This document shows positions 34,360-62,389 of a DNA stretch of 64,000 nt, in pieces. The notes under the pieces were generated by a model. It had not been told where the DNA came from and made no database searches. It saw only the letters and a list, made by a program, of their open reading frames with translations. The stretch's first letter is position 1; every line of letters begins with the position of its first letter. The position numbers and the translations under genes are program-made. The stretch spans positions 62,001 through 126,000 of the forward strand of contig RSEH01000074.1 in NCBI GenBank assembly GCA_006503475.1, written 5' to 3'. Source of the stretch: Stentor roeselii (lineage: Eukaryota; Ciliophora; Heterotrichea; Heterotrichida; Stentoridae).

Positions 34360-35556
34360 TTATTGACTCAAGTCCAATGTTTCGATTTGCAATACACAAG
34401 CCTCTAAGGTGGTCAAATAATACCCAAGCATCCCATTTTGCATATTTTTTCTTCCAAGTTGTTTAATAATCCACAAAAACGACTTGACATTTTTGAGTCC
34501 ACTTTTCAACACAATATAAATATAAATACTCAAAAAGTTATCAGCATCAATAACAAGTTGATCCGGTTCAAGTCTATCCTTCCAGTAGTCGTCAACACTT
34601 TCACATATAAGTTCATTTGTGATGCTGATAACTTCAAGTTTATGAATCGGAGTGTATCGATTTTCAAGTTCTTTTAGTCTTTCGATAGCATCAGTAAATC
34701 CATTAATTCCGTCATTTCTGACAGAATCCATGCAAAAACGATCTTTTATCTGCAGGTCTTTGCAAGTGATTCTTTCAAATTCAGCTAGTTTTCTTTGATA
34801 AAGAAGATAATCTTGAGGCTTTGATATGTTAAATGCCTGGACTAGCAGGTCATGAACATCTCGGTTGATGATTTTATCTAAAATAAAATCGTACATTTGA
34901 CTTGGATTTTCTTGCATCTTCTTTGCCAGAAGTCCTCCGTAGTAATAAATCATTGTTTGAAGCACAATCATTACGAAGTTTTTTATCTCTTTCATTAGGT
35001 TCTTGAAAAGTTGATCGTAATTACCTGATTGGTTTAATGCATCTTCTATGCTCACTCTGAAAATTTCTTGATTATTTGAGCAGAAGAGATTTTGGAAGAC
35101 TAATATCATGTTTGCAATGTAATGTGTGGATTGATCGAAATGACTGTTTAAAAAGTCAAAAATAGAACTAGCATCAAAGTCAATCAGCTCATTTTCAATA
35201 TTTTCAGGAACTTTTATAATAGTTCTTCGAATTCGACTCGGATTAATGCCTCCAGTCTTATGTTGTTGCAAGTAGTCAAAGAGAACAATATTCGAGCGAT
35301 ACTTATTATCATTGACTGTCTTCCATTCCCTGCATCCCTTCTCTAAAGCAAGAGGCCAAGTCGATGAGGGAAACATTTTTTTCGAGTCTTGGATTTCTTC
35401 AAGGACGAATTCTTTCCATTTCTAAATACAACTTACTCTGAAGTCACAAGCGAAGATCACACTTTCGTTTTGTTTGAAGTATTCTCTTTTTTTCTTTTGA
35501 ACAAGTTTCAAATACTCTTCTTTTATCGACTTTCTGTTTTTCTGGCTGTTTCCCAT
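34360..35556 (-). CDS. VPS9-domain protein (Rab5-type GEF), spliced
   Basis: 393 residues from exons 35556-35437 and 35421-34360. The first exon begins MGNSQKNRKS, an N-myristoylation-type start, and is basic. The C-terminal part matches VPS9 domains that activate Rab5 GTPases on early endosomes: LEVISITNELI, DADNFLSIYIYIVLKSG, LKNVKSFLWIIKQL, and GYYLTTLEACVLQI near the end. The Asp of DADNFL and the YYLT segment are the key GEF positions. The N-terminal helical part (~60-220) has no recognised motif. Membrane targeting plus a GEF domain suggests an endosomal regulator. Confidence 0.9.
35422..35436 (-). other. 15-nt intron in VPS9 gene
   Basis: The minus-strand sequence is gtaagttgtatttag, phase 0, with an in-frame TAG. 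Splicing joins IFACDFR to KWKEFVLEE and supplies the MGNSQ N-terminus. Confidence 0.9.
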
Positions 35557-35678: not shown

Positions 35679-38600
35679 CTAGTTATAAAAGAACTGCTCG
35701 TAGTTCATCTTTTCCTGAGGAACTATTATACTTGAGGTGTTTCTAGCATCTCCTGAGTTATCTGAAGTCACATTGAAGTTTCTGATTGAGATGTTAAATT
35801 CATTCGTGATTCCTCTTACCTTGCTTGACATCTGAGACTGTTCTTTTACCAGAAGCGATGCAATCAAAGAATAGACCAAGTCTAAAACTGCAACTTGAAT
35901 GACCAAGTCGATAATAAAGATAATGAACCAGCCAGTCATGTTATCAGTGCAAAAAGAAGTACATGCTACAACAATGAGAATGAAAGAAACAATGCACAAT
36001 AAGAAATTTGCAATAACAACCGAATATTCCAAACGTCTTGAAACATTCCCGAAGTATCTAAAGCCGATGTTTGAAATACTGATGATTTGAGTAATCGCCA
36101 TTGCGAAGAACAGCCGAAGGATGTCTTTCGAGTCAATATTCCCTACACTGGGAGAGACGAAATTTTTAATGAAAGGGATGTGGTCGTAAGAAACCCCGAT
36201 CAAAGCAAGCAAGAGCATCGATTCAGTCGCAATTAAACTCACAGAGCTTAGCCTTCTTGGGTTATACTGCGGAATCAAAATATTCGTAACCGGGTAGAAA
36301 GTCGTGATTTTCCTCATTTTCAAAGGTTCATACGCGTATTTATAATCAACGCTATAAATCCCAATCGCTAACGCAATGAAAAGAATCAAAATAAACCCTG
36401 AAATTATCAAAGGAATACGAGTAGTTCCACAAGGCACAGGTATTTCAGTGATAAAGTAAGTCCCAAATCTCTCAATTGTCACTGCAATATGTGAAGTATT
36501 CACTTTTTCAATCAAACAAAGTTTAGAACACTTAGCAGCGGCAGCATCTATTTCATTTCTAACAACAATTTTAATGGCACTTGTCGGGATGATATCTGAT
36601 TCTTCATCCTTAAGAAGTTCAAGTGAGTAGTTCTGATAATTTCCAGTTTTCTTGTAATTTGCTGAAACGACTAGAGAGTCATTGACTTTCAACAGGAAGA
36701 CTTCAAGGTTGTAGATTTTTTTCGGATTGTAGTCAAGGTCAGGGTTCATCAAGATGTCTAATGAAGAACTGGGCACTGCCAGTCCTGGGTAGTAGACTCC
36801 ACTCATTTTGCTCATGTAAAAAGTGATTTTGTCTGAAAGGTTCAGCCTGGACCCTGGGATTATGTCGTTTGACCAGACAGAACCTGAATAATTCAGCATT
36901 TTTAGAAGGTCTTCTGTGTTGGTTATATCTACGTATGGAGAGTATATTGAGATTAGTGATAAAATGTTTGAATCTGTCACTCTTTTAGTCATTTTTTTTA
37001 GGATTAAGGTTGAAAGGGTTGTTGAGTTGTTTAGAATCAGAAGTTTTTTGTAGGGAACGTCGAGCATTGACTTTAGACATCCTAGGTATAGTTCGAAGTT
37101 GTGAGGACGAAGGGGGAATGAGGAGAAGTAGGTGTACATCAGGTTGTAGAGAAGAAGATATGAGTCTTCTTCTAGGGAGGTTTTGGTGTAAACGATTATT
37201 GCGTTTGGCACGTTCACAAGGTCTCGAGTGTTTAACTTTATGCTTTCAATTGAAGTTTCTAGTCTTCTGTTTGACTTGAACCTGATTTTACTATTGAAGG
37301 TACCACAAGTTTCAATCATATCACAGACCCTTGTAGAAATCATTTTTGCATCCTCAGGTATAATTAAATAGCTTTTAAATTCAAATGAAACCTCTCTGAT
37401 CCACGTGACGACCCTCTTAGAGTTAACATATCCATACTGATAAGAAAGCGGATAGTCCTGATCATCAGTATCAACACACTGAAGGCTAGTCAAAGCCCAG
37501 ACATCATCAATCATCTGATTCGAGGCTCCCTGGCACTGAGGAGGCTGATTAACTTGAATATCAAAGAAAGTCTTAATCGTGCCTTTAAAATCCGAGCTGT
37601 TGACTTCTAAAGTAAACTTATAAACAATTCCTCCAATAAGTCCTTTTTCTCGAAATCCAGCATAAGAGATGCCAGGAGTGACTACAGTGTGATTAGTGTC
37701 TTTTGAAATAACTGACCATTTAAAAATTGGCAGGCCTGAAAGGTTGAACTTTGGAAGAACGTTGAAGACGTAGTCCGGGTCTACCTTTCCCAGAGGGGCT
37801 GACATTTCAACTGACCCTGAAATTGAAGGGTCGACGAAAATTGTTAGAGCCGCGTTGGCTTTCTTTTTAGTTGTATAACCCTCGATTGAGAATAAGTATG
37901 TCGCTTGTGGTCTTAATTTTGAAACACGAAGTTCACCGTTGTTTTGGGATAGTTCTAAGTCGATTCCGCCTATACCTTTACAGAAACGGACTCCTTCGAT
38001 GCATGTCCAGATTTTAGTGATTCTGGCGTTTAAGTCATCTGGGTCTGTTACTGTCGCGTTTATGAAGAGGTCTTGATTGTAAGCTACTGAACCGCTTGAC
38101 CTGCTTAGAGCGATTGTTAGGTCGCTCTCTAAAACCTGAATTACAGCAGAAGCACTTCCAGTGAGTTCTCCATCAGTAACATTAACAAAAAACTCATAAC
38201 TTTTCGAAGGTCTCAGTAAATTCGCCGGAATCTGAAGCATATCAGGTCTACTGAAAGTCTGCATCTGATAAACTTCAACATTACTATCACTGCAATTCCA
38301 ACTATACTTATAACTCAAAGCCTTAGATCCACAATTTTCCAAAACACTTGCAATCAAAGAGTAAGGCTGAGTCGATTTAATCCTAACAACTTTCGGTGAG
38401 TTCAAAGAAACAATCATATTTCTCGTATTCGTGATTTTTATCTCTTTGGTGCAAGTCTTTGTGGTACCTAGATTCAAATATTCAGTTTTCAATGTGACTA
38501 AAACAGTTCCTTCCTCAAGGTACGTCCGAGGAATGTCTAAAAAGTACCCAGTCGACTTGGAAATAAACCCTGTTAACTTTTCATTTACTGGAGAAGTTAT

Positions 38601-41600
38601 GACTGTCCAGGAGTAAACCGCGTATTTGCTTATCGCTGTTGCAGTTATTGTTAGATTTTTACTGTTGCAGAGAAGGGAATAAGAACCTCCTCCTGTCAGG
38701 TCTGAGTCTGGAGTAGGGACTGCGAAAACTCGACTGAGGGTTATGTCGAGTTTTTGGATGTTGAAGTTGCAGATGTCTCCTATTGCTTGCACTTTCTTGT
38801 TGTCGATCTCGATCTTGCTAAAGGATAGGTCGGGGTATTCGTCGAACTTCACTTCGAGAAGGTAACCGGATAACCATTTGCATGACATTCCAAGGGTGAA
38901 GTAATAGTCTGGACCTTTTATTATTTTACTGCAGGAAGTTAAACCTGCTGTTTTTACGGCTCTCTCGAATGATACTTGTACTGAAAGGTAGTCTTTGTTG
39001 TACTCGCTTCGGATTTCTGAACGTTTGAAGTAGTTACCGCATGTTATGCAGTAACCGTTGCTGGCAGTCAAACCTTCGGGACACACACATGTCCTAGTAT
39101 ATGGATCAAAAACTGCATCTTCAAAGCACTGACACACTCCATTAACGCTGAATGCATTTTCAACACAAACAGAGCAAGTTTCATTATCTTTTGCAATATA
39201 ACACATATCATCAGTATTATTAGATTCAAGGACATTCACAATTTCAGTTTTTGTAATAATATCACAAGTGAAAACCATTAGATGATTTCCTGAGTAGTTA
39301 AAAACAACATCAAAGTAAGCTACTCCATCATTATTTGTCTTTTCTGATTGAGAATAACTATCATTTATCACTAAATAGACATATGTGTCTATGACAGGAG
39401 TCATATCAGTAATATTGCTAACTTGAGCAGAAAAAACATATAAGTACTTCGCAGAAGGAGTGTAAGTTGGTACAGTAATTTCCATTCCTAATTCGTAATT
39501 GTACTCAACTGTAATCATCGATGATTTAACTATATCCATGTATCTTGTAGAAGCCACGATTTCGAAATCTCCAATAGTTCCAGCAGCAATTAAAGTAAAA
39601 TGAGCCATTCCTGAAGTCGTTGATAAAGTCTTAGTCCCGAGTAAACGGCCTGATGGGTTAAGATAAATCTGGATAGAGTAAGGGCCATGACTAGTTTCTA
39701 TAGTTGAAAGACTATTGTCATATACTGTCACCTGCACAGCAAACCTTTCATATCTACTGACAATCGACGGAGGACTAGAAGTGAAAACAAGTTTCTGCTT
39801 TTTTATTTCAATTGTTCCCGTTGTAGTTACAGTCCCTGAAGTCGCTGTTAATGTCAAAGTCCCTGGAACTGTGCAATAAAAACTAAATGTGACTGAACCT
39901 GAAGACGTTACCAGTGAACTTGTTCCAACAATTGAAAGACTCCCTGAAATCGTGACGGTCGAGCTCTGTGCCCAGATTACTGGTCTTTGGTCATATAAAT
40001 CGATTTTCACTGTGAAATCCTGATTCGCTGAAAGGCTTGAAGTGCTTGTTGTCATCTCTAATGTGGTTAGTGCAAGGTAGGCTAGTGTGAATGAAGAAGT
40101 CTCGTCAGAAATCATGTCAGTCGCTTTCACTGTGAGCTGGTAAGTTCCTGGAGTTGAAATAACCTTGTTTGAAAATGTTAATAATCCTAATGAACTTGAA
40201 TCTGAAGCGACTAGGGAATTTGATGATTTTATGTAGAGTCCTATTGAATGAGTCCCGTGAGTACTAGCTACCAACGTTTTATCATTATTCATGACTTGAA
40301 CAATAACATCAAAAGTTGAGATAGTGTATAAAGGCTGAATAAATCTTACAGTAGGAGTGAACGAAGTGATTTTCAGCGCTGCTTGCTTAGCAGTAATTGT
40401 AAGAGAAGCAGAGTACCCTTCAGTACTCGCAGTAATAGTCCTACTCCCCGAAAGTGTAAAGTAACAAGTAGTCTGCACAGATCCAGTCGATGTAGTAAGA
40501 GAACTCAAAGTAAACTGAACATTACTTCCTGAAATCGCGAGAGTAGCACTTGTTGTATAAGCATTATTATTATTATCCTTCACCAAAAAGGTCAAAGTAT
40601 CATCAAAGTAACAGGTAGGTGAGTTATCAGAAGCAGTAATCGTGATAGTCAAAGAAATAATAGTAAGACTCGTTGAATCCGCATCAACTTTATCAAAGCT
40701 ACTCGCCCGAATCACGTAACTCCCAGTCGTAGTTATTTTCAAAGAGGTAAAAGTAAAGCAACCGGAAGTTGTGCTTGAAGTAAGAGTTCCAGATAAAGTT
40801 CCTGTTGTTGTCAACGCAAGAGTTATACTGAACGGACCGTGCGCTGTTATCACTGAACTCAGATCGGACTTGTAAACGCAAACGTTCACTGAAAATTCAC
40901 TTGTTGTCAATGTCGGCTGAGTAAAAGTTACTGTTGGGGATATCGACTCTATTTTTAACTTGTTTTGAAGGATTTCAATCGACTTTGATATCGTTTTGGT
41001 ACCTGTTGTGGCTGTTATTGTTATTGTTCCGCTGTATAAACTGGCAACTGTGAATGTTGCTACTCCTGAAGAGGTCGGTAAGACCGTTGTTCCTAGCAGG
41101 GTTCCGGTTGAAGTTAAAGTTATTGAAGCTACATCAGTCCAAACACCTAAGGATTGTTCTAATGTTGTGACTGTCACAGTGAAGTCCACATTTGCTGAAA
41201 TACTTGAAGAACTTGTTGCTATTGTTAAACTTGTCAGCGCTAGTGCATCAATATTCAAGGTCGAAGTATACCCGGATATCATATTCGTACAGCTTGCTTC
41301 AATAATATGATTTCCAGCAGTAGTAATTTTCAGGACAGTGAAAGTAATCACCCCAGATCCAGTTGGGTTTGATGATGTTCCAGTTAAAGTGCCAGTCCCT
41401 AAACTCAAATCAATAGTATGAGGTCCTTTAGAGCTTTCAACCACATTTCCCTCATAATTATAAACAGTAGCAGTTAACTCAAACACACTATTAGTCAAAG
41501 TCGGCTAAATACCCCTTACAGTAGGTGTAACATTGCTGACAACTATTAAATTTTTCTTGACTACGAATTCCAAAATGCTTCCAACAACTGACCCACTCTT

Positions 41601-44600
41601 AACTTCGATTTTATGAGTTCCTGGAACCGTGCAATACACAGTCGGCGATATCGTCCCTGCATCAGTCGTGACTGAAGTCGACCCTGATATGCTAATCGAC
41701 GACGTGATCGTCAATGTAACTGAATGCAGCCAGGATCCGCTTGACTGGTCGTACAAATCAATTTTCAATACAAAGTCAAAGTTCGCTGAAGGGCTTGAAG
41801 GCGTTGCTGCTACTGAAATCGTTGTTAAAACAAGAGCTGCAATTGTTAAACTTGAACTTGAAGCTAAAACCATGTCAGAACTCGTTGCTTGGATCTGGAA
41901 AGTTCCTGGAGATGTGATAATCAGTGATGAAAAAGTGAATAAATCTCGGGTTGTTGACTTTGAAGTTGTTCCTGAAAATGTTCCTGAATTTGTGAGTGAT
42001 AAAGTAATTGTGAATGTTGTGGATCTTGTTAGTTCGATTGATTTGTCGTTGTTGTAGATCTTGATCACAACTGAAAATATGCTGTTTTCTAAGGTTGGCT
42101 TTTTGATAATTACTGTTGGTGAAATTGAGTAGATATCCAGGGAGAGCTTTAAAATAGACATTGATGTGCAAGTGCCTATGATCCCTCCTGATGATGTCAC
42201 AGTGAGAATAAGTGTACCTGAAGCTGTTCCATAAATCGTGAAAACCCCATAGCCAGTATTATTAGTAACAGAGGTAGTCCCTGCAATTCCCAAATCTCCA
42301 GTGACCGTTAAACTAGTGCTAGTAGTCCACAACCCCAAAGACTGATCCTTTAAAGTAGCAGTGACATCAAAATCAAAATACGCTGACTGAGAACTAACAG
42401 TAGAACACGTAATATAAGTTAAAGCCAGAGGCACAATAGTAAAAGAACTGCTAATTCCATCAATCATATCACTTGACGTTGCCTTCAAGGTATAAGTGCC
42501 AGTACTAGTGACCATAAGTCCAGAAAAACTCAAAATTCCATTCAAGCTATTCCTCGTCTTCGTCCCTGTCAAAGTCCCAGTCGAACTAAGATCAATACTA
42601 ACAGTGAAAGGTCCATGCGATGTAAGTAAATTATTTCCTCCATAATCATAAATCCCAACTTGTGCAACAAATTCCGTATTAGGCAATCCTGGCTATTTAT
42701 ATCTTACAACAGGTGTCAAAGAGTCGAACTTCAGCTGTAGCTTGTTGATCGTAATAGTCAAAGTTCCAGTCCTCACCCCGTTCGTTGCTGATAACGCAAG
42801 ACTCCCACTAGTCGTGCAGTAGACAGTCCAAGACACTGACCCTGAATTAGTCGTCTGAGCGGCACTTGGAGAAAACACAGCATTGCTCCCTGATATTGTT
42901 ATCGTCGACGATTGAGTCCAAGTCGCAGGGACTTGGTCAGTGAGTGCAGCAGTGACTGTGAAGTCAAAGTAAGCAGAATACGAAGTGGAAGTAGAAGACA
43001 AGCTGATGTACACCAGGTCCTTGATCACCAGCGACGTGTACTGGCCTTCAAGCAGGTTGGAGCAGGTCGCTTTAATCACGTACGTTCCGTAAGTAGTAAT
43101 CATCAGACTGCTCAGTGAAAGAACGCCGCTTGCGCTGGTGCCTGTCAAAGTTCCAGTCATCGTGCCACTCACCACGTCTAAGGACAAGGTGATGACTCCG
43201 TAAGACCCCCGGGTTACTCTCGTGCTGCCTGCATTATCATAAACCCCGACCTGAACATCAAAAGAACTGGTCACCAATGTAGGCTGTTTAAATATTACCA
43301 CTGGACTCACTGAGTCAAATTTCAAACGGTTCTGAAGTATCGTCAAAGTCAACGTCGCTGAAATCGTCCCGGAAGACGCTGTTAATGTGAGAGTCCCGTA
43401 TGAGGTGCAGTAAATTGTAAAAGAATGAGAACCAGTCACTGTTGGGTTCAATGCACTTGAAGGCTGAACGTTGGAACCTGATAATAAAAGACTCAAGCTT
43501 TGAGTCCAAGTCCCTCCAAGCTGGTCTTTTAAAGTCGCAGTTATTGTAAAGTCGCAGTTTTCTGAGTAAGATGTCGAGGTACTGGCTAATGTGATAGTTG
43601 TAAAGTCAAGTACTGTAAAAGTACTGGAATAACCAGTTGTCAAGTCAGTTCCTACAGCTTTTATCTTATAAGACCCGTACTTCGCAATTCCAAGTCCACT
43701 GAAAGAAAAAGAACCACTTGAAGTGGTTCCGGTCAGAGTCCCTGATAAGGTTTCTGAAGGGTCAAGAGAAATAGTAACTGAGTAACTTCCTCTTGTGACT
43801 AGTGTCGTGTCTGAACTATCGTAAATCTCGACTTTGACTGAAAAAGTGTCAGTCACCAGGCTGGGCTGTTTAGTTATTACTGTTGAGACAAGAGTGACTC
43901 TTATCACGTTTTCCGCGATGCTGACACTCAGAGTGCCCGTGACTGTCCCCGACTTCGCCGTTAACGCCAAAGTTCCAACAGCGCTGCAGTAAACCGCAAA
44001 AGTCGCAGTTCCTGTCGAGGTTGTCTGAGTCAAACTACTTGAACTAGTCGCTGATAAATTAGAACCTTCCAAAACCACTGTCGTGCTTTGAGTCCAGGCA
44101 TTACCGAAGTTGTCTATCAATGTCGCTGTCACTGTAAAGTCTTTGTTTGCTGAATATGGAGAAGTTGATGCGGATAATGTTATTGAGTATAAGTTTCTTA
44201 TGTATAATGTTGAGGATTCTCCTGTTGTTAGACCTGATGATGAGGCCTGGATCTTGAAGGTACCGTATGTTGTTATTTGGAGATTTGAAAGGGTTAAGAG
44301 ACCTGATGATGTAGTTCCTGTTTTAGTCCCGGTCATTGTTCCTGTTGTGTCTAGTCCTAGTGTTATTGGGAAAGTACTTCTGGTTATTAGAGTTGTTCCA
44401 CTGTTATCGTAGATTCCGACTTGAACTTCGAAGGTATCTGTCACTAAGGTCGGCTAATTAGGGCTTACTGTTGAGGTCACTGAGATTACTTTGATCTGGA
44501 TTTGAAGACAGGTTATATCTAGAGTTCCTGTTACAGTCCCTGAAGTAGCTGTAACAGTGAATAATCCAACTGTAGTACAGTACAATGTATAGCTACAAGA

Positions 44601-46904
44601 AGCACTAGTAGTAGTACAACTCAAGCTACTATCAGAAAAAACATTACTTCCAGACAAAGTAACTACTGTACTAGAAGTCCAACCACTGCTAAGCTGATCT
44701 TTAAGAGCAACATTGAGAGTGTAGTCTTTATAAGCAGAGTAAGAAACTGATGTTGAAGAAAGCGTCAAGGTGGTTAAAGCGAGTTGAATCACTGTATAAG
44801 AAGAGGTCGAACTCACTGTTGTCATATAAGAAGCTGATGCTTGAAGGTTATAAGTCCCTGCAGACGTGATAAAAATACTAGAAAAAGAAGCCACTCCACT
44901 CGAAGTACTCTGAGTTAAAGTCCCTGACATAGTCCCTCCACTATTAACACCCAAAGTTATCGAAATCGGTCCATTCGTAGTCAAGACTGTTGTTCCATCA
45001 TTTTGATAAACAGTAACTTGCACTGAAAATGATGATGTAGTTGTTGATGGCTATTTAAAAATTACTGATGGAGAAATCGATGTGAATTTCAACACATTTG
45101 ATAAAATAGTAACTGTTGTAGTCGCTGATTTCCCTGAACATGAAGCTGTAAATGTATGAAGTCCCGACTCGATACCGTGAACTGTGAAAGAAGCTGACCC
45201 TGTCGTTGTTGTCAGAGAAATTTGCCCGCCAAATACTTTATCAGAAGTAAGACTGATTGTTGAGGATTCTGTGAAGGAAATTCCTATTTGATCGAAAAGA
45301 CTTGCAGTTAAAGTAAAATCTAAATAGCCGCTGATTGATGTAACTGATCGAGTCAGAGTCATGCTTGTCACAGCTGCTGCGATGATAGTCAAAGAATAGG
45401 TTCCTGGAGTAATACCTGATGAACTCGCTGTTAAGGTATAAGTGTTCGCTGAGGTTATTTTAAGTGATGAATAAGATGAAATTCCTCCAGATGTTGCAAC
45501 AGAAGTAGTTCCAGATATGGTCACACTCGGCGATAAAGAAAGGCTGATGGTAAAAGTTCCATATGTTGAAATCAAGGTGGTTCCAAGATTATCATAAACT
45601 TTAGCCTCAACACTAAAAGTAGAACTTGTATAAATAGTCTAAATAGTTCTTACTGAAGGAGTCACTGATGTTATAGTTATCTTATTCTGCTTCACGTCTA
45701 CTGTCTTAGAATCTGTTTTTCCTGAACAAGTCGCTGTGATTGTATTAGAACCTACTGTGGAAGAATAGACAATCATGCTTCCAGTACCAGTAGAAGTCGT
45801 TAAAGTTAAGGTTCCAAGAATCGTTGTTGAACTTGTAAGAGTAACTGTAGCTGAAGAAGTAAAAACGTTATTATCTTGATCGTAAATGTTAAATGTTATA
45901 GTGAAAGCAGTATATGCTGAAGGAATAGTAGAACTTGTTGATATTGTTATCAAGGTCACAACTGGACTATTTAATGTAACTGTGTAAGTTCCAGAAGTTA
46001 CACTTGTCATTGATGCTGTTAAAGTATAACTTCCTGCTGCTGTGAATTTTATCCCTGAATAAGTTCCAATAGAACTTGCTGTATTTACAGTTAGTGTTCC
46101 TGTTATTGTCGTAGGAGATGAAGTAATTGTCATTGATCCTCCAGGATGTCTCGTTAGAAGAGTAGATAACGTGCTAGAGTATATCCCGACAGTGAATCCA
46201 TAGGAAGTCAGAATTGATGAAGCCTAGATAATTCTTACTGTTGGAGAAAAAGTAATAAATTTTAGAGCTGGGCTTTGAAGTGTAACTTGAACACTTCCTG
46301 TTTTACTGCCACTTGTAATTGTTATTGTATTTAGTCCTGTAGTTGTGCTATAAACTACATATGTCGTTGATCCAGTTGAAGTAGTTTTCGTTAAGCTACC
46401 AGAAGATGCGAATATATTCGTTGATGAACTCGCTGTAAGAGAGGCAGAGTTAACAAAGGTATTTCCACATGCATCCGTTAATGAAATTGTAAGGGTAAAG
46501 TCTTCATATATTGTTGGAGTTGATGAGCTTGATGTCACTGATATAGAACCTAAACTGGTTCCAACAGTAACTGTAATGGTGGAGGATGTATAATAAAGAG
46601 TTCCAGCAGTGGCATGTTCAATTGTCATATAATAAGAGCCTGATGATGTAAACATAAAAGTACTGAATGTTACAGTACTCGCTCCATTCATTGTTATAGT
46701 GAAGCTGGTTATATCAGATCCTTTTATAAACTTAACTTTAAGATCAGGACTGTTCGAACTAGGATCTAGACTCATGGAAAACGCTGTACATGTTTCAGTT
46801 ACCTAGGTGAATATTACTGTTCCCCAGCCTGTAACAGTGAGGGTTACTCCACTTACACCTTGTAAGATGCATGCTTTGATGAGGAGAATGAAGAGAGACA
46901 CCAT
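35679..46904 (-). CDS. Giant Ig-like repeat / REJ / polycystin-1-like membrane protein
   Basis: An 11.2-kb gene starting at the ATG at 46904 with a signal peptide (MVSLFILLIKACILQGVSG). Twelve 15-nt introns lie at the same place in each repeat; spliced length is ~3,681 residues if all are removed. Layout: ~12 Thr/Ser-rich beta repeat units of ~190 residues (each two Ig-like folds, e.g. FTVTATLIDNFG; ALTLTSSGT types); a Cys-rich EGF/furin-like patch (CSVCVENAF...CQC...CVCPEG...CITCG); a REJ/PKD-like region (YKYSWNCSD, ATVTDPDD, KIWTCIEG); a GPS-proximal-like segment (HIAVTIERFGTYFI); then five to six TM helices and a short tail. Polycystin-1/REJ proteins act in adhesion or signal sensing; that role here is inference. 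Confidence 0.9.
39750..46802 (-). repeat. ~588-bp tandem coding repeats (Ig-like pairs)
   Basis: Intron-to-intron distances are 579, 585, 588, 597, 588, 582, 591, 594, 594, 588 and 582 bp. Each unit codes two ~95-residue Thr/Ser-rich beta domains, with recurring cores such as TGTxTGTT(S)SG, YDN..., and YC(T/S)xxGTLxLTA. The last unit before the Cys-rich patch has lost the intron (SPPSIVSRYERF). Confidence 0.88.
40335..46817 (-). other. Twelve phased 15-nt introns, one per repeat
   Basis: Introns (plus coordinates): 46803-46817, 46224-46238, 45639-45653, 45051-45065, 44454-44468, 43866-43880, 43284-43298, 42693-42707, 42099-42113, 41505-41519, 40917-40931, 40335-40349. All are phase 0 and begin gtaa. 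The ones at 43866, 43284, 42099, 40917 and 40335 end CAG or AAG and contain no stop, e.g. gtaacttttactcag, gtaatatttaaacag. The other seven end TAG and would terminate translation. Splicing always gives (S/T)P(T/V) followed by PT or a close variant. The five stopless ones are inferred from position and consensus and could be translated instead. Confidence 0.82.
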
Positions 46905-61906: not shown

Positions 61907-62389
61907 ATGTCTCATAGCAGAGAAAATACGATTTTTACACAGTTTTCTGTCAGCTCGGATTCGGTAGCTGTTGATGACTCGTTGCTTATCAGTGGATTTA
62001 TTGAAGATATGACCAACTCAAGAATGTCGCTTCAAAAAGAAAACTCGGACTTGCAGCTCGAAATGGAGTTAATTAATGAAGACCGTCACCGACTCCAAAA
62101 AGAAAACCAAGAACTAAAAGCAAAACTCGAAAAAACACATCTAAAAACAGTCCAAATCGAACTTCTCTCTAAAATCGCAACATCAGCTCTAGAAAAAAAC
62201 TACAAAACCCATGACCTCCAAAGTAGTGCTCCCTGGAACTCAGAAAACGTAAAAAAAGGAAGAATAAGTCCAATAGTAAAAAGATACTTAATATCCAGGA
62301 CTTCCACTTCAACCTCTCCTCTAATAATCTGCAGAGGGAACTCAAAAATAACAACATACCGAAAGATAATAAACAGAAACACAAAATAA
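61907..62389 (+). CDS. Small coiled-coil protein, unknown
   Basis: 160 residues. A Ser-rich start (MSHSRENTIFTQFSVSS), coiled coil ~40-85 (SLQKENSDLQLEMELINED...), then a basic tail with Ser/Thr runs (ISRTSTSTSPL). No known domain. Its stop is 61 nt from the convergent stop of the FYVE-like gene; the start is 84 nt from the divergent TTLL gene. Confidence 0.68.
   Translation: MSHSRENTIFTQFSVSSDSVAVDDSLLISGFIEDMTNSRMSLQKENSDLQLEMELINEDRHRLQKENQELKAKLEKTHLKTVQIELLSKIATSALEKNYKTHDLQSSAPWNSENVKKGRISPIVKRYLISRTSTSTSPLIICRGNSKITTYRKIINRNTK

Follow-up and report, generated by a model that had tools for sequence, protein, structure and literature searches.

Twelve 15-nucleotide introns in register with the coding repeats of a giant Stentor roeselii gene, five of them free of stop codons

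A giant gene of the ciliate Stentor roeselii raises the question of whether a tiny intron that leaves the reading frame open is still removed as an intron. The gene lies on the minus strand of a 64,000-nucleotide (nt) stretch of assembly GCA_006503475.1 (contig RSEH01000074.1, forward-strand positions 62,001 to 126,000), which we call the window and in whose numbering positions are given below, and it carries twelve 15-nt introns in step with its coding repeats. An earlier sequence-only reading of this DNA took some of these introns to have become optionally translatable through mutation of the acceptor. We favour another account, at a probability of roughly 0.88, namely that all twelve 15-mers would be ordinary spliceosomal introns of the heterotrich type, removed constitutively and copied together with the repeat unit.

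The gene (35679..46904, minus strand) spans 11.2 kb from an ATG at 46904 to a TAG at 35681-35679, in a window that has long open frames under the standard code, and it becomes one open frame of 3,681 amino acids (aa) once all twelve 15-mers are taken out. All twelve are in phase 0 and, as the sequence-only reading had described, sit at one homologous codon of nearly every repeat, with successive spacings of 579, 585, 588, 597, 588, 582, 591, 594, 594, 588 and 582 bp. Seven end in TAG and bear a stop: introns 1 (46803..46817, GTAATATTCACCTAG), 2 (46224..46238, GTAAGAATTATCTAG), 3 (45639..45653, GTAAGAACTATTTAG), 4 (45051..45065, GTAATTTTTAAATAG), 5 (44454..44468, GTAAGCCCTAATTAG), 8 (42693..42707, GTAAGATATAAATAG) and 10 (41505..41519, GTAAGGGGTATTTAG). 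These had been said to require splicing, and the frame indeed opens only with them removed. Five are stop-free and a multiple of three in length (3n), again as first noticed: introns 6 (43866..43880, GTAATAACTAAACAG), 7 (43284..43298, GTAATATTTAAACAG), 11 (40917..40931, GTAACTTTTACTCAG) and 12 (40335..40349, GTAAGATTTATTCAG) end in CAG, and intron 9 (42099..42113, GTAATTATCAAAAAG) ends in the rarer AAG. GT...AG ends over 15 nt are found in 12/12, as is an A at position 10, the branchpoint (A10). The combination of GTAA, A10 and AG over 15 nt occurs within the gene only at the twelve sites, and a looser GTA, A10 and AG pattern finds three further sites. The junction region of the last repeat (39750..39779, near 39764, minus strand) has no intron and reads contiguously.

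Each repeat unit of about 195 aa comprises two immunoglobulin (Ig)-like domains, and the introns had been placed at a domain boundary. An AlphaFold2 model of a two-unit piece with one stop-free intron retained (input alignment of 10 rows) has a mean predicted local distance difference test score (pLDDT) of 87.7 and beta strands throughout, of which those at 182-189 and 204-211 flank the retained residues 192-196. The site is thus not quite at the boundary in this model; the loop that retention would be predicted to lengthen follows the first strand of the unit's second Ig-like domain. The only run of three or more residues with pLDDT below 50 (193-195) falls within the retained residues.

The same arrangement recurs across the genome. 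A tblastn search of the organism's own assembly (44.4 Mb, 522 contigs) gave 83 matches on 11 contigs, and a profile of the post-junction domain, built from the giant gene, was run on the window and on stretches taken from other contigs. In-register introns were picked as 15-nt GT...AG segments within six codons, A10 being no selection criterion. The 103 distinct profile anchors comprised one duplicate, four weak sister-domain matches, 86 in-register introns and 12 intron-less copies; a 15-mer at C62:99956 (GAG end, four codons off) was discarded as spurious and its copy counted among the 12, and intron 1 (46817), not caught by the profile, was added by hand wherever n = 87. The 86 introns are spread over 10 contigs, in the giant gene and its paralogs, with 56 TAG, 29 CAG and one AAG acceptor. 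Their flanks are alike, with F at the eighth residue after the junction in 73/86 and P two residues before it in 55/86, and the profile alignment agrees. With introns removed, the arrays on contigs C88 (23 introns), C201 (14), C50 (nine) and C432 (seven) each form one open frame from first to last intron; the set of 11 on C264 belongs to at least two genes, because its first 5.4-kb interval contains four stops. G is absent from intron position 11, just downstream of the branch A (0/86), as would be expected if an early AG were avoided. The motif is broken in three stop-bearing copies, of which C432:116533 and C88:60126 have no A10 and C432:118882 has a GTG donor.

Public open reading frame (ORF) sets treat the two kinds of copy differently. 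Three protein searches returned at least 15, at least 8 and at least 3 matches, and nine proteins were examined. One, P0017, a JGI 'hypothetical protein', shows 3 differences in 583 residues from the giant-gene ORF 42693-44444 and reads through two stop-free copies, bearing out the expectation that gene finders would call these exon. Among the nine proteins, in-register segments within the ORF number 14; each is V-x-x-x-Q, and P0017 holds two. The ORFs of 7/9 relatives (P0017-P0022, P0025) end in register at V-x-x-x-stop, that is, at TAG introns. Six of these seven ORFs run through stop-free introns, an annotation artefact.

Such ORF calls would fit the view that stop-free 15-mers are plain exon, no longer introns and always translated, and drift of the splice signals would then be expected. 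We found none: GTA at positions 1-3, A10 and the terminal AG are kept in 30/30 stop-free copies, compared with A10 in 54/56 stop-bearing copies and 84/86 of the whole family. Composition at positions 3-12 did not differ between the two classes (p 0.12 to 1.00). Identity at positions 5-9, 11 and 12 was 0.44 in stop-free copies against 0.40 expected from composition, and 0.38 against 0.36 in stop-bearing copies; values this near expectation suggest that there was time enough for drift and give no sign of coding constraint. A search of the 30 stop-free copies for relaxed splice signals or coding-like conservation thus found neither. A profile made from stop-bearing copies alone favoured the spliced reading in 29/30 stop-free copies, with a mean gain of 8.4 bits and a worst value of minus 0.4. 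We regard the plain-exon view as extremely unlikely. Exonization of the stop-free copies as a class was likewise rejected on the kept signals (30/30).

Acceptor use in the genome as a whole would account for the CAG-ending stop-free copies. We counted the motif GTAAG-NNN-TA-NN plus acceptor on both strands, with the TA shifted by one base or the pattern reversed as controls. The motif was found 643 times with TAG, 469 with CAG, 214 with AAG and 36 with GAG, compared with 50 TAG, 38 CAG and 95 AAG for the shifted control and 168 TAG, 62 CAG, 298 AAG and 140 GAG for the reversed control. TAG and CAG exceed both controls, indicating that both acceptors are used elsewhere in the genome, and GAG (36) falls below its reversed control (140). 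Judged by these counts, CAG is an ordinary acceptor in this genome, and stop-free phase-0 introns are then to be expected. Since in phase 0 the last three intron bases form a whole codon, T or C at position 13 alone sets stop or no stop. An enrichment of stop-free acceptors in the family was considered and ruled out (30/87, compared with 550/1,143 of the genome-wide motif excess). Phase-2 15-nt introns in the DNA stretches examined amounted to three calls, all CAG and with weak coding scores, a number too small to use.

Stop status also switches in both directions between counterpart copies. Units of the relatives, which may be orthologs or paralogs, were paired with window units by sequence and order, by eye. 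The TAG copies at 45653 (intron 3), 44468 (intron 5), 42707 (intron 8) and 41519 (intron 10) have stop-free counterparts on C50 (ending CAG), in P0018, on C432 (ending CAG) and in P0002, respectively. Conversely, stop-free introns 9 (42113), 11 (40931) and 12 (40349) have stop-bearing counterparts: 42113 is TAG on C50 and C432, and the P0025 ORF stops there; 40931 is TAG on C432; and 40349 is TAG on C50 and C432. Status is unchanged for 40931 on C50 (CAG) and in P0002 and P0003, for 40349 in P0002 and P0003, and for 43880 in P0018. P0025 lacks the intron of 42707, an exact absence. The final stop of P0018 was assigned to intron 43298 by order only, its flank being closer to that of 43880, and was excluded from the flip count. 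On a tree of 84 units, which omits the single copies on C62 and C220 from the 86 and leaves the direction of change unrooted, acceptor state required 26 changes, compared with a shuffled mean of 24.9 (234/300 shuffles as low or lower), such that stop status shows no inertia.

The tree bears as well on how the introns multiplied. Introns multiplied by internal duplication in repeat-protein genes are a general class, which this gene resembles in the same codon and phase in every tandem unit and from which it differs in that the introns are tiny and 3n, with one base deciding whether the unspliced frame is open. An origin by repeat duplication had been proposed, and the flank alignment and unit phylogeny that were suggested as a check agree with it: the flanks of the 86 introns are homologous between units, C490, C50 and C432 units match up in pairs according to position, with support of 81 to 99, and three neighbouring giant-gene units (106468, 105880, 105298) form a group (Shimodaira-Hasegawa-like approximate likelihood-ratio test, SH-aLRT, 84), a topology that fits duplication of intron-bearing units. 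Parallel gain, in which many units independently acquired the same intron at one favoured place by introner-like or proto-splice-site insertion, would fit the near-complete difference of intron bodies among copies and the presence of units without an intron, and the weakness of the deep forks (46/81 inner branches open) leaves room for some such gains. Near-saturated bodies are, however, what old inherited 15-mers should show, and the homologous flanking units pair across genes by position with the intron included; parallel gain therefore seems to us quite improbable as the general explanation.

Scored with the profile from stop-bearing copies, 9/12 intron-less copies read better straight across the junction, by only 0.4 bits in C201:37793 and by 1.6 to 11.2 bits in the other eight. 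The last units of the giant gene and of the C50, C432 and C264 genes have no intron, which is likewise missing from the final matching unit of relatives P0002 and P0003, and arrays may thus have grown from intron-bearing internal units. These copies bear on intronization, in which five residues of ancestral protein turned into an intron that later acquired TAG. The stop-free form could be coding and the direction of change is unrooted, as such a history would allow, but in an alignment judged by eye each unit's sister domain has no such segment, and most intron-less copies read best without an insert; we hold intronization to be very unlikely.

Several observations weigh against constitutive splicing of ordinary, duplicated introns. 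Among the intron-less copies, C262:24042 is a tie (45.4 bits contiguous, 45.9 with five residues omitted), and two copies score higher when five junction residues are omitted (C264:161105, from 65.8 to 72.0; C62:99956, from 38.8 to 46.2). These two, without GT-AG at the junction, may be exonized former introns. The AAG motif count (214) lies above the shifted control (95) and below the reversed one (298), and with AAG seen once among the 86 family introns and in excess genome-wide against one control only, the copy at 42113-42099 may splice poorly. Finally, TAG makes up 57/87 of the family compared with 593/1,143 of the genome-wide excess over the shifted control (p 0.014; 0.03 with the reversed control; 0.14 for TAG against CAG alone). 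With TAG somewhat over-represented in the family, stop status may be less than fully neutral, though this excess is a hint only, because the genome counts cover one motif subset and are not split by phase. As to the two aberrant copies themselves, that near 161105 on C264 (minus strand) carries five additional residues (TLYTE or TTTPL), placed at the junction or immediately behind it, and omitting five residues slightly further on scored better still (78.0 versus 71.9, all-copy profile); that near 99956 on C62 (plus strand) is a divergent repeat copy whose five junction residues (EKIFY) the profile would omit.

These points would suit two further readings. Under the first, the stop-free copies are optionally translated and partial retention adds five residues, giving protein isoforms. 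The stop-free, 3n, phase-0 form is compatible with this, as are the modelled position in a surface-type loop with room for five further residues, the two copies on other genes that look like introns turned exon, and the rare acceptor of the AAG copy. Against it stand the invariant splice signals in 30/30 stop-free copies with no coding-like conservation at other positions, CAG as a normal acceptor, the flips of status between counterparts and, in the model, the fact that the one run of three or more residues with pLDDT under 50 falls in the retained segment. With the spliced reading favoured in 29/30 as well, the proposal that acceptor mutation made these introns optionally translatable is not supported, and we rate optional translation as quite unlikely. 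The second reading, which we consider improbable, would have the stop-free copies, above all the AAG copy, partly retained to give combinatorial loop lengths along the Ig-like array, with mRNA surveillance policing the stop-bearing copies and the TAG excess as the mark of that selection.

Ordinary splicing of all copies suggests the following history. One phase-0 intron would originally have lain within an Ig-like domain, in its first loop, and been copied at each duplication of the two-domain, ~195-aa unit. In a genome that uses TAG and CAG acceptors and may, more rarely, use AAG, T and C at position 13 would exchange nearly freely over time, leaving stop-free status as a by-product. On sequence grounds, all twelve introns are most likely removed in the cell, and the flips are most likely near-neutral.

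The host protein carries a REJ domain after the repeat array (best stretch of match 38133..38684, minus strand; PF02010, 47.0 bits versus a cut-off of 25) and, by eye, several hydrophobic stretches near its C-terminus. Pfam scans of the giant protein found no other match above its own cut-off, and a PDB sequence search with the C-terminal part returned no match at E 1 or below. Foldseek hits in PDB were generic Ig-like arrays, with template modelling (TM) scores of at most 0.42 by query length among the matches listed, and we claim no fold family. The REJ domain ahead of a hydrophobic C-terminal part is a combination that we take to mark the REJ/polycystin-1-like class, and the product is probably a large membrane protein of this build, to which the giant gene adds an upstream array of two-domain Ig-like units. 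Just downstream of the gene lies a possible further 15-nt intron (GTAAGTTGTATTTAG, 35422-35436, minus strand), flanked on either side by sequence with weak coding scores. Neither an Rfam scan (gathering threshold) nor a tRNA scan found a match in the window.

The introns match those known from heterotrichs. In the excerpted text of PMC9505925, 92.8% of annotated Stentor coeruleus introns measure 15 nt, position 10 is mostly the site of the branchpoint A, and the genetic code of Stentor is the standard one; intron-bearing Stentor genes mostly have one or few introns, and splicing in genes with more than eight is called 'uncertain'. The introns described here resemble the 15/16-nt introns of Stentor coeruleus and Blepharisma stoltei, as excerpts of PMC9505925 and PMC9942806 present them, in length, GT-AG ends, A10 and the standard code as in Stentor. 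Unlike the genes with one or few introns in that excerpt of PMC9505925, the giant gene has 12 and the C88 paralog 23 in one open frame. The conservation seen here supports functional tiny introns in genes with 12 to 23 of them, a point left open for Stentor in the excerpted text.

Excerpts of PMC11441545 put about 95% of heterotrich introns at 15 bp, all of them 3n, and other ciliates are reported, in excerpts of PMC11334263 and PMC5014332, to deplete 3n introns or enrich them in stops. The stop-free copies are alike to the translatable introns of Paramecium and other ciliates treated in the latter two excerpts, which cite Jaillon 2008, in being 3n and without stops, properties through which retention escapes nonsense-mediated decay; in contrast to those ciliates, which are reported to avoid translatable introns, 30/86 in-register introns here are translatable. 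A limited literature search, with supplements and the Stentor genome paper outside its scope, found, among the matches listed, neither in-register introns described for a repeat gene of a ciliate nor an account of stop-free heterotrich introns. Stop-free 15-mers in such genomes are better treated as introns; in public ORF sets they appear as exon, and the TAG copies split the genes. Dozens of homologous phase-0 3n introns, differing mainly in stop or no stop, would allow a direct test of translation-dependent surveillance on tiny introns, and because other ciliates avoid translatable 3n introns and the heterotrich 15-bp introns are all 3n, as far as the excerpted sources go, the giant-gene family may serve as a useful natural experiment.

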